From NCBI GenBank assembly GCA_005239475.1, contig SPAX01000007.1, positions 9,254 through 50,140 of the forward strand: DNA of 40,887 bases, written 5' to 3'. The position numbers were made by a program, and so were the translations under genes. The notes below the pieces were generated by a model, which saw nothing but the letters and a program-made list of their open reading frames with translations, was not told the origin of the DNA and did not search any database. Below, piece by piece: positions 21,179 through 30,014 of this stretch (positions are counted from its first letter, which is position 1; the number at the start of each line of letters is the position of its first letter). The stretch comes from Nitrospira sp. Its GTDB lineage: Bacteria; Nitrospirota; Nitrospiria; Nitrospirales; Nitrospiraceae.

Positions 21179-21820
21179 TCATCCTCGGGCGGCTTCCATC
21201 AAAGCCGGCTCGCAGAGCTGCAGCCGCTTTTCCACTGACTTCCAATCGATGTTGGCGAAGAACGCCTCGATGTAGGATGCCCTCTCTGAAGGCTTATAAT
21301 CGAGGAGATACGCATGTTCCCACACATCCATGACCAGAGCTGGAATGAAGCCGGCTATATTTCCATTTTCATGCAAACTGATCCAATGATTGGAGAGTCG
21401 GCCGCTGCGTGGATTCAAATAACAAATGGCCCAGCCCACGCCTCGCATCTTCCCCACGCTGGAAAAGTCCAATTTCCACATGTCATAGGTGCCGAAACTG
21501 TCTTCTGCGGCTCTCATAAAAGCAGAGCCTTGATCGGGCTTCTTGGCTCCGCCTTTGTGCAAATTCTCAAAGTAATATTCGTGCAAGACCATCCCGTTGT
21601 ATTCAAACCCTAAGCGTCGCGACAGTTCCGAATAGGCAGGCATTTCCTCCTGATCAATCCGTCCGTCCTTGAGCATCTCTCCAATCTGGGCCGTGAGCTG
21701 GTTCGCGGCCTTCACATATCCCTCATACAGTTTTATATGCATTTCGAGCGTTCGGTCCGAAATCCCGACCAGCCCGTGTAAGTTAAACGGCTTGACGTCG
21801 TAGGAACCTCCCATTGTCAT
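21179..21820 (-). CDS. Fe/Mn superoxide dismutase
   Basis: The 213-residue protein shows the family metal ligands: His in LEMHIKLYEGYV, His in MVLHEYYFENL, and Asp and His in the signature DVWEHAYLLDY. It dismutates superoxide to peroxide and oxygen. The ribosome site is AGGAGAT before ATG 21820. The gene starts 104 nt after the di-haem peroxidase stop and 69 nt before the ferritin-like gene, so the three probably form an oxidative-stress operon. No signal peptide is visible, so it is cytoplasmic. A decayed second SOD is at 23465-23688. Confidence 0.92.
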   Translation of the reverse strand: MTMGGSYDVKPFNLHGLVGISDRTLEMHIKLYEGYVKAANQLTAQIGEMLKDGRIDQEEMPAYSELSRRLGFEYNGMVLHEYYFENLHKGGAKKPDQGSAFMRAAEDSFGTYDMWKLDFSSVGKMRGVGWAICYLNPRSGRLSNHWISLHENGNIAGFIPALVMDVWEHAYLLDYKPSERASYIEAFFANIDWKSVEKRLQLCEPALMEAARG

Positions 21821-23405: not shown

Positions 23406-23449
23406 AAGCTAACGATTCCATCCTGTGTAGTCTGGTCACAATTGATCAG
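23406..23449 (-). promoter_or_regulatory. Palindromic activator site 5 with -10 (peroxidase operon)
   Basis: On the minus strand CTGATCAATTGTGACCAG (23449-23432) is followed after exactly 20 nt by TAGCTT (23411-23406). The peroxidase start is at 23357. Spacer and site resemble site 2 before the Crp/Fnr gene. Confidence 0.6.
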
Positions 23450-23464
23450 ATGCTCAGAATATTT

Positions 23465-23688
23465 TTTAAAAATCCCAGTCGTCTGGTCAGTTCGGAACAG
23501 GCCGGCATTTCCTCATGATCCACCTTGCCATCCTTTACGAGATCGAAAATATGTTCATTCAACTTATTTGGTGGCGGTGACATACTCTGCATAGAGGGCC
23601 ATATGCATGTCGACGGTCCGGTCGGAGATCCCTCTCAGTCCATGCAAACTAAACATGTGGGACTTCTTCGTTTCGGGGGCTTAACCAT
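23465..23688 (-). pseudogene. Decayed superoxide dismutase relic
   Basis: From ATG 23688 (with AAGGAGACATC upstream) the minus strand, after one frameshift, reads SLHGLRGISDRTVDMHMALY then AEYVTATK, a stop, and in another frame DGKVDHEEMPACSELTRRLG. These align directly with the N-terminal third of the intact SOD at 21179..21820 (LHGLVGISDRTLEMHIKLYE, DGRIDQEEMPAYSELSRRLG). The rest of the gene is missing. It is a relic of a second SOD. Confidence 0.8.
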
Positions 23689-23977: not shown

Positions 23978-24553
23978 TTAGGATTTCTCCTTCACCGTGA
24001 GATCGTTCTTCACAGACTTCACGCCGGGGACTTGCCAGGTTGTCCAGGACGCTTGGGCACTGGTCGTGATGTCTGCAACCTCACCGGTCAGCGTGACAAC
24101 GCCCGCGTTGGTCTGAACATTAATATCGGCCTCCTTGAGACGCGAGTCCTTCATCAGATGCGAATCCTTCGAGATGTGCTCTTTGACGCGTGCCGTAATG
24201 GCCTCATCCTTCTCCTCCACCGCGTCGCGTGTAGACGGGGCGACGACTTGGAGTTCGTTTTTCACCGTCTTGACGCCATCGAGTCCTGCGGTGATCCCCT
24301 CCGCCGCACGCTTCGCCGTGTCGGAATCGACCTTCCCGCGGAGCACCACCCGACCCTCTGTGGTCTCGACTTCGATCTGTCTTCCTTTGACCCGGGAGTC
24401 GGCAGCGAGGGCGATCTTGGTTTTCGCCGTCAGCCACGAGTCGTTGACCAGCGCCTTCTCTTTGGATACGTCAAGGGCAGTGGCCGGCACTGCGATGAGT
24501 ACTGCTCCGACAACCAAAGCGGTGCAGAGCGTGACCGAATAGTGTGTCTTCAT
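23978..24553 (-). CDS. Periplasmic protein with two BON domains
   Basis: The 191-residue product has a signal peptide (MKTHYSVTLCTALVVGAVLI..ATA). Two BON domains follow: residues about 37-100 (WLTAKTKIALAADSRVKG, GRVVLRGKVDSDTAKRAAEG) and 110-188 (ITARVKEHISKDSHLMKDSR, GVVTLTGEVADI). BON domains bind phospholipid or peptidoglycan surfaces and protect the envelope, as in OsmY. The gene lies downstream of the damaged CsbD gene and probably shares promoter site 6. A truncated copy is at 29437..29595. Confidence 0.87.
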   Translation of the reverse strand: MKTHYSVTLCTALVVGAVLIAVPATALDVSKEKALVNDSWLTAKTKIALAADSRVKGRQIEVETTEGRVVLRGKVDSDTAKRAAEGITAGLDGVKTVKNELQVVAPSTRDAVEEKDEAITARVKEHISKDSHLMKDSRLKEADINVQTNAGVVTLTGEVADITTSAQASWTTWQVPGVKSVKNDLTVKEKS

Positions 24554-24616: not shown

Positions 24617-24880
24617 TCAGCGCGTCTTTTCCTTCGTGGCTTCCAGCTGGGACCGCTGCTGCCACTGGTCCGCCCACTTCATGAGTTCCTCTTTCTTCTC
24701 GCCGTACCGCTCCCGGGCCAAGCTGACACAGTTACCACCGTACCGTTCCTGAAGCATGCCGATAATCTTGTCGAAGCTCCCTTCGATTTGCTGCAAGTCA
24801 TTATCGACGAACTTCCCCCATTGCTGCTTCAGTTCGCCTTTGAACTGCATCCATTTCCCCTTGAGTTAATCCACATTCAT
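24617..24880 (-). pseudogene. CsbD-like stress protein with premature stop
   Basis: The intact paralogue at 29658..29885 begins MNADQLKGKWMPFKGELK. Here ATG 24880 gives MNVD then TAA (24868-24866) where the paralogue has CAA (Gln), and the frame continues LKGKWMQFKGELKQQWGK. The CAA-to-TAA change is therefore a nonsense mutation at codon 5. The track starts at an internal ATG, 24850, which has AAGGGG upstream and could still give a shortened 77-residue protein (LMKWADQWQQ...). It follows promoter site 6. CsbD-like proteins are small sigma-B/stress-induced helical proteins. Confidence 0.8.
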
Positions 24881-24967
24881 GGGTTCCTCCTCCTGTGTGA
24901 GATGGCCCCACCTCACTCCTCGTACCGATCTGGCTCCATCATTCAAAAATTCCCCCCAGTGCGAGCC

Positions 24968-25011
24968 AGTATGGCGAGAAGACCGGCAGCGGTCTGGTCA
25001 AAATTGCTCAG
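24968..25011 (-). promoter_or_regulatory. Palindromic activator site 6 with -10 (CsbD-BON module 1)
   Basis: On the minus strand CTGAGCAATTTTGACCAG (25011-24994) is followed after 20 nt by CATACT (24973-24968). The spacer contains GCCGGTCTTCTCGC, nearly shared with sites 1, 10 and 11. It is upstream of the CsbD and BON genes. Confidence 0.65.
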
Positions 25012-25171
25012 GGTGGGAGAATTAATGAGGGATGAGCCGGACAAGCGGTGTCATATCTGCCGGCTCTATTCAACGAAGAGAACCCGTCCGACATTGCACT
25101 CCGGCGGTGGTTCTGGTCACTGCCGAGTCGCAATCGAGGTCATATCATCAGAAACATTTCAAAAGAGCAGC

Positions 25172-25570
25172 TCACAGACTGGAGCAGAATGAATGGCCGC
25201 CGCGCGAAGCTGTTGGTCCGACAGGTCCAGAGTTGGGTCTCACCCTGTACTCTTGCCGCACCGGAACCCGCGAAACCAATCGGCACCACCGACCAGATTC
25301 AATCCATGATCGACCGAGCCTTCCACCGAAGACCTCCGCATCATCGTTGCTATGCATGTCGACAAATTGGTCCTTGCAGGTCTGTGGGTCCCATGCATTC
25401 TGAACAATCTCCGGAAACCAAACCCGGCGACGGCACTTCTCCAGGCGTACAAACCCTATCCGTGGGGAATCCGTGACATCCATGATAAGATTGGAATCTG
25501 CATCGACAGGAACACTGTCCCCAAATGAGAGAATTTCTGGGTCTATCACGTAGGCCGCGCGTTGGAGCAA
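25172..25570 (-). CDS. Hypothetical ORF (weak)
   Basis: A 132-residue minus frame (MLQRAAYVIDPEILSFGDSV...) has plausible composition in its N-terminal half but starts at TTG without a clear ribosome site, and the C-terminal half looks random. The plus-strand ORFs in the same place are no better. It is listed because no stronger gene explains the 24881-25710 stretch. Confidence 0.25.
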   Translation of the reverse strand: MLQRAAYVIDPEILSFGDSVPVDADSNLIMDVTDSPRIGFVRLEKCRRRVWFPEIVQNAWDPQTCKDQFVDMHSNDDAEVFGGRLGRSWIESGRWCRLVSRVPVRQEYRVRPNSGPVGPTASRGGHSFCSSL

Positions 25571-25586
25571 CAGGTGCTAGGACGAG

Positions 25587-25710
25587 ATGTTCTATCGGTA
25601 TAGGAGGATTTTCTTGGGCAAGCTCACAGTGCCTCTGTTAGCGAGCGGCCTATTCTCAATAGGATTCGGCAGCGAATCGCCCAACCTCGTGCCCACTTCA
25701 CGCCGCAAGA
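25587..25710 (+). pseudogene. Truncated start of an exported protein
   Basis: The frame starts MFYRYRRIFLGKLTVPLLAS, a signal-peptide-like sequence, and continues GLFSIGFGSESPNLVP before running into the 1159-bp repeat. The minus-strand segment at 26539-26850 contains a related GPFSIRFGSESPNFVP. So this is the 5' end of a gene whose later part survives, inverted, in each repeat unit. Family unknown. Confidence 0.45.
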
Positions 25711-25850
25711 CCGAGGGGTCAGTGTGGCGCCGGTTTCCTCAAGCGCACAATCCACCGTGCCTAAAGACGCCTACTAAATTCCCACTCACCCGCTCGTCTC
25801 GTTCCTAGCCTAGGGGCTCGTCGCCAGAAAAACAAAGAAATTTCCGCGGT

Positions 25851-25895
25851 CTGGTCAAAATTGCTCAGATCGCAAGACTCCGGAGAGCGTACATT
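25851..25895 (+). promoter_or_regulatory. Palindromic activator site 7 with -10
   Basis: CTGGTCAAAATTGCTCAG (25851-25868) matches all specified palindrome positions. TACATT (25890-25895) begins after 21 nt. The gene start is at 25936, 40 nt after the -10. Confidence 0.6.
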
Positions 25896-25935
25896 TACTT
25901 GTATACGTGTTTTACATCTAACCGAGGAGGCTCCC

Positions 25936-26298
25936 ATGGTATCTATTTCCAAAATTGTCGGTGTCCTGTCGTGTGGTTTCTTGCTGTGCCTGGGTCTGTC
26001 GAATGTCGCGTCGTCTGCAGACGAGCTCAACACTGGCCAATCTGATAAGAAGATGTTTGCCGTGTCGGATAAAGACGACTTTCAAGCCGGCAAGGAGGTC
26101 AAGGGCGAAGTGATGCGCGTCGATGGTGAGAACTATGTCGTCAGAGAGGGCACTGGAAATGAGGTGCGCATTCATGTTGACGCCACAACTGAAACGAGAT
26201 CAACATTAAAGGCTAAACCGGGAGATCGTGTTATTGCGAAAGTGAACGCAAAGGGTCACGCAATTTCGTTTCTAACGGACCAACCTATCGCCCACTGA
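25936..26298 (+). CDS. Small exported protein, copy 1
   Basis: The real start is ATG 25936 with CGAGGAGG upstream; the track start at 25861 lies inside the promoter site. The 120-residue product has a signal peptide (MVSISKIVGVLSCGFLLCLG, cleavage near SSA/DE) and a mature domain ending with beta-rich segments VKGEVMRVDGENYVVREG, VRIHVDATTETR and GDRVIAKVNAKGHAISFL. This resembles the small OB-like DUF5666-type folds, though I am not sure. Identical to 27095..27457 and paralogous to 28254..28652. The promoter suggests stress control. Confidence 0.75.
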   Translation: MVSISKIVGVLSCGFLLCLGLSNVASSADELNTGQSDKKMFAVSDKDDFQAGKEVKGEVMRVDGENYVVREGTGNEVRIHVDATTETRSTLKAKPGDRVIAKVNAKGHAISFLTDQPIAH

Positions 26299-26359
26299 CG
26301 CTCCTCTCGAATCAGCAAGAGGGCCCAACGGGGTAGTAGCAGGTAATTGTCTTAGTGAG

Positions 26360-26398
26360 AGTCGGCAGGATGGTTCTGCATTGGACCATCTGCCGACT
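26360..26398 (+). terminator. Hairpin downstream of exported gene copy 1
   Basis: AGTCGGCAGGATGGT and ACCATCTGCCGACT pair over 14 bp with one bulged G, around a 10-nt loop. It lies 60 nt after the stop. There is no T-run, so it may act as an RNA-stabilising or Rho-assisted end. It is repeated at 27519-27557. Confidence 0.4.
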
Positions 26399-26538
26399 CC
26401 GACTAGGTGCCGTTCTGATACACACGAGTCAGAGGCCATCGCTGCCGGTGTGCCGGAGAGGTTCAAGCAGCGGGAGTGATAGATTTAGTGGCGCGAGCGG
26501 TGCGCCTCCAGGTGCTAGCCGGTCGATCAATGCCGAGG

Positions 26539-26850
26539 CTACGACACGAATACGACCGCATACAGCACAAATTGTTTTCTCCAGAACTTTGAACTATCCG
26601 CGTCATAGAAGTGAACTTGGAGTGATCGAATTGGTGGGTGACTAGCTGCGATCGCCTGGGTCCGCTCCTTCAATTGACGATTAGGGGACGAGTCGGGGTC
26701 GCCATACAGACTCACGAAGAGCTGTGAACGGGGACTCTTTTCAATCAGGCGCAAGACATGTTCATCATGGCGTACAGTTCCGTCGCGCCCTGGGTGTCTC
26801 GCATGCGGCACGAAATTGGGTGATTCGCTGCCGAATCTTATTGAGAAAGG
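26539..26850 (-). pseudogene. Inverted fragment of an unknown gene, copy 1
   Basis: The minus frame reads GPFSIRFGSESPNFVP then GRDGTVRHDEHVLRLIEKSP and SPNRQLKERTQAIAASHPPI. It looks like real protein sequence, but a stop lies just upstream of the GPFSI segment and no ribosome site is visible. The start matches the plus-strand fragment at 25587-25710, so these are two pieces of one gene family in opposite orientation. Confidence 0.45.
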
Positions 26851-27009
26851 ACCAACTCACGTCGCAGGACCGAGGGGTCAGTGTGGCGCCGGTTTCCTCA
26901 AGCGCACAATCCACCGTGCCTAAAGACGCCTACTAAATTCCCACTCACCCGCTCGTCTCGTTCCTAGCCTAGGGGCTCGTCGCCAGAAAAACAAAGAAAT
27001 TTCCGCGGT

Positions 27010-27054
27010 CTGGTCAAAATTGCTCAGATCGCAAGACTCCGGAGAGCGTACATT
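27010..27054 (+). promoter_or_regulatory. Palindromic activator site 8 with -10
   Basis: Identical to site 7: palindrome 27010-27027, TACATT 27049-27054, gene start 27095. Confidence 0.6.
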
Positions 27055-27094
27055 TACTTGTATACGTGTTTTACATCTAACCGAGGAGGCTCCC

Positions 27095-27457
27095 ATGGTA
27101 TCTATTTCCAAAATTGTCGGTGTCCTGTCGTGTGGTTTCTTGCTGTGCCTGGGTCTGTCGAATGTCGCGTCGTCTGCAGACGAGCTCAACACTGGCCAAT
27201 CTGATAAGAAGATGTTTGCCGTGTCGGATAAAGACGACTTTCAAGCCGGCAAGGAGGTCAAGGGCGAAGTGATGCGCGTCGATGGTGAGAACTATGTCGT
27301 CAGAGAGGGCACTGGAAATGAGGTGCGCATTCATGTTGACGCCACAACTGAAACGAGATCAACATTAAAGGCTAAACCGGGAGATCGTGTTATTGCGAAA
27401 GTGAACGCAAAGGGTCACGCAATTTCGTTTCTAACGGACCAACCTATCGCCCACTGA
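27095..27457 (+). CDS. Small exported protein, copy 2
   Basis: Same 120-residue product as 25936..26298, with the same start, ribosome site and promoter, 1159 nt downstream. If both copies are real, the gene dose of this regulon member is doubled. The fold and function are as uncertain as for copy 1: signal peptide, then a beta-rich domain ending with KVNAKGHAISF. Confidence 0.75.
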   Translation: MVSISKIVGVLSCGFLLCLGLSNVASSADELNTGQSDKKMFAVSDKDDFQAGKEVKGEVMRVDGENYVVREGTGNEVRIHVDATTETRSTLKAKPGDRVIAKVNAKGHAISFLTDQPIAH

Positions 27458-27518
27458 CGCTCCTCTCGAATCAGCAAGAGGGCCCAACGGGGTAGTAGCA
27501 GGTAATTGTCTTAGTGAG

Positions 27519-27557
27519 AGTCGGCAGGATGGTTCTGCATTGGACCATCTGCCGACT
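27519..27557 (+). terminator. Hairpin downstream of exported gene copy 2
   Basis: Repeat-unit copy of the hairpin at 26360-26398, with the same 14-bp arms and bulge. Confidence 0.4.
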
Positions 27558-27697
27558 CCGACTAGGTGCCGTTCTGATACACACGAGTCAGAGGCCATCG
27601 CTGCCGGTGTGCCGGAGAGGTTCAAGCAGCGGGAGTGATAGATTTAGTGGCGCGAGCGGTGCGCCTCCAGGTGCTAGCCGGTCGATCAATGCCGAGG

Positions 27698-28009
27698 CTA
27701 CGACACGAATACGACCGCATACAGCACAAATTGTTTTCTCCAGAACTTTGAACTATCCGCGTCATAGAAGTGAACTTGGAGTGATCGAATTGGTGGGTGA
27801 CTAGCTGCGATCGCCTGGGTCCGCTCCTTCAATTGACGATTAGGGGACGAGTCGGGGTCGCCATACAGACTCACGAAGAGCTGTGAACGGGGACTCTTTT
27901 CAATCAGGCGCAAGACATGTTCATCATGGCGTACAGTTCCGTCGCGCCCTGGGTGTCTCGCATGCGGCACGAAATTGGGTGATTCGCTGCCGAATCTTAT
28001 TGAGAAAGG
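27698..28009 (-). pseudogene. Inverted fragment of an unknown gene, copy 2
   Basis: Exact repeat-unit copy of 26539-26850 with the same FGSESPNFVP segment and lack of a proper start. Confidence 0.45.
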
Positions 28010-28028
28010 ACCAACTCACGTCGCAGGA

Positions 28029-28320
28029 CCGAGGGGTCAGTGTGGCGCCGGTTTCCTCAAGCGCACAATCCACCGTGCCTAAAGACGCCTACTAAATTCC
28101 CACTCACCCGCTCGTCTCGTTCCTAGCCTAGGGGCTCGTCGCCAGAAAAACAAAGAAATTTCCGCGGTCTGGTCAAAATTGCTCAGATTGCAAGACACCG
28201 GAGAGCGTACATTTACCTGTATACGTATTTTACATCTAACCGAGGAGGCTCCCATGGTATCTATTTCCAAAATTGTCGGTGTCCTGTCGTGTGGTTTCTT
28301 GCTGTGCCTGGGGCTGTCCA
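28029..28320. repeat. Partial third copy of the repeat
   Basis: The third occurrence of the unit start (CCGAGGGGTC, 28029) continues with few changes through the promoter site and the signal-peptide codons of the next gene, then diverges near 28312. This shared leader could have been the crossover point that produced the tandem duplication. Confidence 0.8.
28169..28213 (+). promoter_or_regulatory. Palindromic activator site 9 with -10
   Basis: CTGGTCAAAATTGCTCAG (28169-28186), then TACATT (28208-28213) after 21 nt. The gene start is 28254. Confidence 0.6.
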
Positions 28321-28652
28321 ACGCGGCGCAGGCGGAGCATGCGCCCGGGCCCTCAGACGTTATGAAAACTGATTCCGTAACCGACCGGCAAGGTTTTCAA
28401 TCTGATGATGACAAGCAAAAGAACGTGGACAATGAGAAGGGAAGTAATAGCACAGAAGGCGCCAAGACGATCAAGGGCGAACTGTTCCGCGTCGAAGACG
28501 GGAACTATTTCGTCAAGGTGAAGGGCGGCAAGGAAATACGTATGCATACAGATAAAACTACCCAGATGATAGGAGAAATCAAGAAGGGTGATCGTATTGA
28601 GGCGAAGGTGAACGAGCAGAATCACGCGCTGTCGATCCGCTCGGCGAAATGA
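28254..28652 (+). CDS. Small exported protein, diverged paralogue
   Basis: ATG 28254 has the same CGAGGAGG ribosome site as the upstream copies. The signal peptide is almost identical (MVSISKIVGVLSCGFLLCLG), but the mature part has diverged: a longer acidic/polar linker (DDDKQKNVDNEKGSN) and then the same beta-rich end, IKGELFRVEDGNYFVKVKGG, IRMHTDKTTQM and GDRIEAKVNEQNHALSI. The 3' flank also resembles that of the other copies, so this is an older duplicate of the same gene and flanks. Confidence 0.75.
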   Translation: MVSISKIVGVLSCGFLLCLGLSNAAQAEHAPGPSDVMKTDSVTDRQGFQSDDDKQKNVDNEKGSNSTEGAKTIKGELFRVEDGNYFVKVKGGKEIRMHTDKTTQMIGEIKKGDRIEAKVNEQNHALSIRSAK

Positions 28653-28873
28653 AGGACTGATGCCGGTCACGGAAATGAAGCCGGTCGTACGACTGACTCC
28701 ACTCTCGAATCAAGCAAGACCTGTTTGATGGGACAGTAGTCATTGTCTCAGTGAACGCCTGCAGGACGCTAGGTCATATGGAGCGACCTGCCAACTCTTT
28801 GAGCCATGCCGTGGAAACGGATCACACAGAAATCTCTATCCCGCCATTACAAGACAAGGAGAGCGGAATACCC

Positions 28874-29407
28874 ATGACCGGTCAAACGCAGACTCCTGAC
28901 CGCGTATGGTCGATCGTCTTGGCAGGGAGTAAGGGACATGCCCCTCTCCTTCTCGCCTGCGCATTGCTCGCAGCAGCTTGCGCCAAGCCGGCGGATCATC
29001 GAGATGTGTCGATGGATTCTCTTCATCCATCGATGGCGTTTCAGGCCGGAGACCGCCATGTTCTCGCCGGTGAGTGGGAATATGTTGACGGCGCTGCTGT
29101 CCTGCTGATACTCGACGAGCAGGGCAACGGTCACTATGATTGGAAAGACGGGCGATTCGAGACGCACACGCTCATCGGTCAGACCTGGCAGGGCATGTGG
29201 TTTCAGAAGGAGAATGATCGAGATGGTAGATTTACGGTCGAGTTCTCGCCGGATTTTTCAGACGGGGAGGGGCGCTGGTGGGTCAGCCGCATCGGAGCCG
29301 ACCATGCACCCGCGCAAAAGGGCGGAACGTTTCATCTCTCCAAGAAGACTGCTCTTATAAACCTCAGCGATACTTCACCGGTACCATGGAAGCTTCTCAC
29401 GCCATAA
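28874..29407 (+). CDS. Lipoprotein of unknown function
   Basis: ATG 28874 (with AAGGAG upstream) is preferred to the track start at 28751. The N-terminus ends in a lipobox-like LLAAAC. The mature protein has a compact beta-rich domain: HVLAGEWEYVDGAAVLLILD, GNGHYDWKDGRFET, GRFTVEFSPDFSDGEGRWW and then GGTFHLSKKT. It is probably a periplasmic lipoprotein. The family is not recognised. The last residues run up to the breakpoint of the truncated BON gene on the other strand. Confidence 0.65.
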   Translation: MTGQTQTPDRVWSIVLAGSKGHAPLLLACALLAAACAKPADHRDVSMDSLHPSMAFQAGDRHVLAGEWEYVDGAAVLLILDEQGNGHYDWKDGRFETHTLIGQTWQGMWFQKENDRDGRFTVEFSPDFSDGEGRWWVSRIGADHAPAQKGGTFHLSKKTALINLSDTSPVPWKLLTP

Positions 29408-29436
29408 CCAATGATCGGCAGGGAACCTCTGACTCG

Positions 29437-29595
29437 ACCATCGGCAGCGAGGGCGATCTTGGTGTTCGCCGTGAGCCACGTGTCGTTGTTCGGGGTCTTT
29501 TCGTCGGCGTTGCCCAGCGCGTGCACCGATCCGGTGAGGAGTGCCCCACCGACAACCAGAGCCGTGCAGAGTGTCAGTACATAGCGTGTGTTCAT
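29437..29595 (-). pseudogene. Truncated BON-domain gene (copy 2)
   Basis: The first 53 or so residues (MNTRYVLTLCTALVVGGALL... WLTANTKIALAADGRV) match the start of the BON protein at 23978..24553. Near 29437 the homology stops and the frame runs into unrelated sequence (RGSLPIIGYG...) shared with the lipoprotein gene's 3' side. No BON domain survives. A deletion or rearrangement removed the rest. Confidence 0.8.
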
Positions 29596-29657
29596 ACTCG
29601 TCTCCTTACCCGAAATGTAAAAGTATGTCGTCAGACGTCTTCGTGAGTTGCATCTAT

Positions 29658-29885
29658 TCAGTGGGGCTTCTTATCCACGGCTTTCGGCGCTAACTGCTGA
29701 TACCACTGGTCCGCCCATTTCATGAGCTCATCCATATTATCGCCATGCCGTTTCTGGGCTTTGCCGAGAAACTTGTCATAATTCCCTTCGATCTGCTGCA
29801 AGTCGTCATCGGTAAACTTGCCATACTTCTCTTTCAGTTCGCCTTTGAACGGCATCCATTTCCCCTTGAGTTGATCCGCATTCAT
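29658..29885 (-). CDS. CsbD-like stress protein (intact copy)
   Basis: The start is ATG 29885 (MNADQLKGKW), with GGAGGAGG upstream; the track's 29954 start is too long. The 75-residue protein has the CsbD pattern: LKGKWMPFKGELKEKYGKFT, DDDLQQIEGNYDKFLGKAQK and LMKWADQWYQ. Family proteins are abundant cytoplasmic stress proteins of unknown biochemical role. The gene follows site 10 and precedes the truncated BON gene. The other module has the opposite defect (damaged CsbD, intact BON). Confidence 0.85.
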   Translation of the reverse strand: MNADQLKGKWMPFKGELKEKYGKFTDDDLQQIEGNYDKFLGKAQKRHGDNMDELMKWADQWYQQLAPKAVDKKPH

Positions 29886-29970
29886 GGATTCCTCCTCCTG
29901 TGTGAGATGGCGCCGCCTCACTCCTCGTACCGATCTGGCCTCGTCATTCATCATCTTCCCCCTACGAGCC

Positions 29971-30014
29971 TGTATGGCGGGCGGACCGGCAGCGGTCTGG
30001 TCAGAATTGCTCAG
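29971..30014 (-). promoter_or_regulatory. Palindromic activator site 10 with -10 (CsbD-BON module 2)
   Basis: On the minus strand CTGAGCAATTCTGACCAG (30014-29997) is followed after 20 nt by CATACA (29976-29971). The flanks closely match site 6, showing that the promoter was duplicated with the module. Confidence 0.6.

Follow-up and report, generated by a model that had tools for sequence, protein, structure and literature searches.

Complementary lesions in two CsbD-BON modules of a Nitrospira genome: probable birth and death of a redundant multi-copy module

The window analysed here, a stretch of 40,887 nucleotides of contig SPAX01000007.1, comes from a draft assembly (289 contigs, 90% complete) of a Nitrospira-like soil bacterium. 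It contains two copies of a module consisting of an operator, a CsbD gene and a BON gene, all on the minus strand, and in each copy one of the two genes is damaged. Module 1 begins with an operator at 24993..25010 (site 6 of the preliminary description of this DNA), an imperfect palindrome, TGAGCAAT/TTTGACCA, read toward CsbD1. The start of its -10-like hexamer, CATACT (24968..24973), is 29 nt away from the centre of the operator. CsbD1 (24617..24880) carries a 12-residue insertion that is absent from CsbD2 and CsbD3 in the alignment, and is broken at codon 5 by an in-frame TAA (24866..24868), its minus-strand frame starting M-N-V-D-stop-L-K-G-K-W. The adjoining genes use ordinary stops and the TAA is found in none of the orthologues, which makes recoding of the TAA an unlikely reading. 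BON1 (23978..24553) is an intact, open frame of 191 aa for an exported double-BON (OsmY-like) protein, which in a Pfam search matches PF04972 with two BON stretches (E 6e-31, 107 bits). The preliminary description, which had reported a stop at CsbD codon 5 and an intact BON gene in this module, is thus correct to the base. Beyond BON1, at 23446-23592, is another partial duplicate, a fragment that resembles a section of the superoxide-dismutase-like gene at 21179-21820 (58% over 36 aa, E 3e-14).

Module 2 has its operator at 29996..30013 (site 10 of the same description) and a -10-like hexamer, CATACA (29971..29976), that is poorer than those of most other modules. CsbD2 (29658..29885) is intact, encodes 75 aa and matches PF05532 at 56.1 bits, for which the gathering cut-off is 40. 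The BON2 remnant occupies 29332..29595. Its homology to other BON genes runs from 29595 to near 29425, about 56 codons rather than the about 53 previously claimed, and is followed by a tail of some 31 codons of unrelated sequence beside the end of ORF218 (28751..29407, plus strand), a convergent, lipoprotein-like gene. The 29332-29595 frame has no Pfam match at E 0.1, and hence no detectable BON domain, and a search across the genome for the missing half of BON2 found no orphan copy.

The two modules are clearly related. A 226-nt stretch of CsbD and leader is 81% identical between them, as are the adjoining 83 nt that include the operator. They have operator, -10 spacing, leader and gene order in common, bearing out the earlier claim of a shared promoter, leader and order. 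There are 11 operator matches in the window against 0 expected from shuffled sequence, and in each of the 15 CsbD modules compared the best -10-like hexamer begins at a distance of 29 nt from the centre of the operator. In class II Crp/Fnr promoters, the geometry of which is established, the activator is centred at -41.5, and the 29-nt spacing fits an activator centred at about this position. The modules are probably under the control of a Crp/Fnr-family activator, a predicted regulator, and Crp-like genes are present on three operator-bearing contigs (C257, C35 and C269). In module 2 the -10 element is poor in two species, being CATACA here and CCTACT in the relative described below, as compared with CATAAT in most others; this is a hint from the sequence that module 2 may be losing its promoter too.

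Elsewhere in the window, a Crp/Fnr-type regulator gene at 1432-2159 loses its frame within the DNA-binding helix-turn-helix, the remainder continuing in another frame; contigs C269 and C35 hold two genes related to it. Between modules 1 and 2, a unit of 1159 bp with an operator and the gene of DUFa, a small exported protein of 120 aa, is present twice in tandem, with 25709-27029 and 26868-28188 identical over 1321 bp. Next comes a third copy that has diverged (DUFc, 132 aa), and in the syntenic stretch of the relative DUFc is alone. The tandem DUFa unit, 25709-28188, is either a recent duplication or an assembly effect.

Does this genome depend on modules 1 and 2 for one complete set of the two genes? 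The family search identified three CsbD loci above the family cut-off in the genome, all on the contig of the window, and a more distant CsbD with 39% identity on contig C233. The third of these loci, module 3, is approximately 12 kb downstream, just past the end of the window (contig positions ~50970-52318; locus L002, 971-2318), and it is complete. It has an operator (contig 52298-52318), CsbD3 (75 aa, PF05532 67.1 bits against the cut-off of 40), BON3 (185 or 187 aa, PF04972 107.3 bits, two BON stretches) and a small exported protein. With module 3 intact, the genome does not rely on the other two for one whole set. Upstream of module 3, at L002 2377-2586, is a remnant of a Crp-type C-terminus.

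The whole stretch is kept in order in a related Nitrospira MAG, the palsa_1310-like genome G031, as cytochrome gene, BON1, CsbD1, operator, DUFc, ORF218, BON2 remnant, CsbD2 and operator. The end of ORF218 abuts the BON2 junction there as well, and the junction is identical at the level of single bases. The truncation is therefore real and older than the split between the two species. Beyond the junction the BON2 tails of the two species differ in frame, so the tail is not a conserved protein. Codon 5 of the G031 CsbD1 is an ordinary glutamine codon, as it is in the paralogues. Instead, the CsbD1 terminator has been lost in G031, leaving CsbD1 and BON1 as one open frame of 300 aa (L033, 6747-7646) with the BON export signal in the middle. 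With a stop in one lineage and terminator loss in the other, CsbD1 has been damaged in both by different events. Since the BON2 junction is shared with G031 and the CsbD1 TAA is absent from it, the lesions of modules 1 and 2 are, as read from these sequences, of different ages.

Similar losses were encountered in a survey of 32 genomes of the genus and the loci retrieved. On a short contig of G030 (C229) an intact CsbD plus BON module is at one end, and at the other is a CsbD1-type gene that is degenerate in its C-terminal part and lacks a following BON. On G025:C341 a broken CsbD precedes an intact BON, on G031:C31 an intact CsbD is followed by a BON cut after a few codons, and on G031:C128 and C167 BON is missing and CsbD shares a frame with the third protein, the small exported one (L040, 4319-4819; L041, 5406-5909). 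The BON of G031:C54, which is interrupted at an ambiguous base, was left out of the count. Intact modules accompany the decayed ones in all four of the affected genomes (G000, G025, G030 and G031). Among the 32 genomes searched, stops within the CsbD of a module are restricted to the copy in the window and that of G025:C341. The number of CsbD modules varies between related genomes, with an expansion in G031 to as many as nine or ten matches to CsbD. In the collection of papers searched, CsbD-BON pairs in Nitrospira were not treated and related work alone came up.

The copies are old. Among the three CsbD modules of this genome dS is 0.48-0.66, and between species it is 0.20-0.36 for the same CsbD genes, which places the duplication before the species split. 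The CsbDs of module 1 from three genomes group together as a clade with support of 97/88, with no supported order for modules 1, 2 and 3. In AU tests a sister relation of modules 1 and 2 (p 0.086) and a grouping of modules 2 and 3 (p 0.131) were neither shown nor rejected. Between species, dN/dS is, on small counts throughout, 0.12 for CsbD3 and 0.17 for BON1; for CsbD1 it is 0.23 (one-sided Fisher p 0.008), for CsbD2 0.36 (p 0.03) and for the BON2 fragment 0.30 (p 0.07), and by this measure the BON2 fragment is no clear pseudogene. As far as such small counts can be read, neither CsbD1 nor BON2 resembles long-dead sequence, which counts against reading them as decayed. Selection on CsbD1 over a large part of the period after the split does fit a recent stop. 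When changes in CsbD1 were assigned branch by branch, the G030 copy was too diverged as an outgroup and four sites only were assigned.

There are also signs of exchange between copies. In alignment columns ~120-230, BON1 and BON3 of this genome are 92-98% identical, as compared with 62-82% for the G031 pair. Over the same columns BON3 falls to 60-87% identity between species before it rises again to 95-100%. This is most simply explained if part of BON3 was overwritten by BON1 in this genome, in a tract of ~100 bp (L002 1358-1912 compared with window 23978-24553) that ends close to the position of the BON2 truncation. Conversion of this kind means that the modules recombine with one another.

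Is CsbD1 still made? The gene has presumably lost its function, and the TAA may nonetheless not be a null allele. Ribosomes that stop at codon 5 might restart at the ATG of codon 11, yielding a shortened CsbD (24617..24850, minus strand, 77 aa) and sparing BON1 from polarity, in which case the stop would tune the gene. This ATG is 15 nt past the TAA and has AAGGGG 6 nt upstream, where the anti-Shine-Dalgarno duplex is -7.4 kcal/mol, as compared with -8.2 for BON1 and -12.2 for the normal start; the 77-aa product scores 47.6 bits for PF05532, above the cut-off of 40, and CsbD1 is under purifying selection between species. The product would, however, be without the nearly invariant W10 and without the first part of helix 1, predicted at residues 3-21 in the CsbD3 model (pLDDT 73.5). 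Moreover, CsbD2 and CsbD3, which are intact, have this ATG and the sequence before it as well, so that neither is an adaptation to the stop. We regard restart as a tentative possibility. A bolder proposal, which we think doubtful, is that the genus holds a pool of co-regulated stress modules with parts that decay independently and copies that gene conversion overwrites, as from BON1 into BON3, and that the CsbD of module 1 is becoming a translated leader for BON, by stop and restart here and by read-through in G031.

How, then, did two modules with complementary lesions come to lie in one window? Sequencing or assembly error behind one or both lesions would be a trivial answer, and the draft state of the assembly and scattered N just beyond the end of the window speak for it. 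The window itself is without any N, however, and the BON2 junction is seen again in another species, in an assembly made independently. That recurrence excludes an assembly break in BON2, which the preliminary description had named as an outcome that would undo its claim, and so does the failure to find the missing half elsewhere in the genome as an orphan. An error could now concern the single-base TAA alone, and overall we consider error very unlikely. The preliminary description had itself read the locus as subfunctional decay after duplication, each module keeping what the other had lost. Its account of a duplication followed by loss of different parts stands. Subfunctional decay does not, in view of the intact module 3 and the unequal ages of the lesions. 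Under the DDC model modules 1 and 2 would be a duplicate pair, both now needed, one for BON and the other for CsbD; the lesions are indeed complementary within the window, and the promoters and leaders of both modules have been kept. This model expects that no remaining copy has all the ancestral parts, whereas in module 3 operator, CsbD and BON are all intact. The lesions, moreover, were not acquired at one time, the sister relation of modules 1 and 2 lacks support in the AU test, and in both species module 2 has a poor -10 element. We consider the DDC model highly improbable, more so even than error.

We favour instead birth and death, with gene conversion, of a redundant multi-copy YjbJ/OsmY-like stress module, to which we assign a probability of about 0.8. 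This reading draws on the intact module 3, the order, junction and terminator loss in G031, the recurrent losses of single genes, the age of the copies, the conversion tract and the constant 29-nt spacing. Modules 1 and 2 would belong to a set of three or more old paralogues of a single stress module. Each would combine an operator with a CsbD/YjbJ-like protein of the cytosol and an OsmY-like double-BON protein for export, joined in some copies by a third protein, small and likewise exported. As the copies would be redundant, single genes in single copies would occasionally be lost, while gene conversion would pass sequence between other copies. In module 2, deletion of the 3' two thirds of BON would have brought the end of ORF218 alongside before the split from the palsa_1310-like relative. 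In module 1, the CsbD, a diverged paralogue, would have acquired the codon-5 stop in this genome and, separately, lost its terminator in the relative. Redundancy is presumably why these losses have been tolerated, though the three copies could differ in regulation or localisation.

Complementary pseudogenes in a single window can therefore mimic subfunctionalisation, and here the next 12 kb and one relative are enough to point to redundancy and lesions of unequal age. The locus also provides a worked case of a small putative Nitrospira stress regulon with a well-defined operator, constant -10 spacing, copy-number expansion and gene conversion.

Several known systems invite comparison. CsbD1-3 are members of PF05532 and align over their full length with E. 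coli YjbJ (PDB 1RYK; profile to 1RYK E 1.5e-19). In Bacillus subtilis csbD is under sigma B (PMC7660261). Unlike YjbJ and B. subtilis CsbD, the CsbD genes described here come first in a gene pair, with BON second, that is under a palindromic operator, and CsbD1 has its 12-residue insertion. BON1 and BON3 are like E. coli OsmY and DolP in having two BON stretches and, at the N-terminus, a stretch resembling an export signal. The best NCBIfam matches are OsmY (NF007858), at 81.9 bits for BON1 against an equivalog cut-off of 174, and a DolP-type lipoprotein model, at 56 bits against 184; scores so far below these cut-offs indicate family relatives of OsmY and DolP, not orthologues. The CsbD-BON pair thus resembles E. 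coli YjbJ plus OsmY, and by this analogy the modules would serve in stress. The variable copy number, the independent pseudogenes and the conversion tract between two copies agree with the general model of birth and death with gene conversion. Unlike in the general model, the unit here is a co-regulated gene pair that would decay part by part and, where only part of the cluster is seen, mimics complementation.
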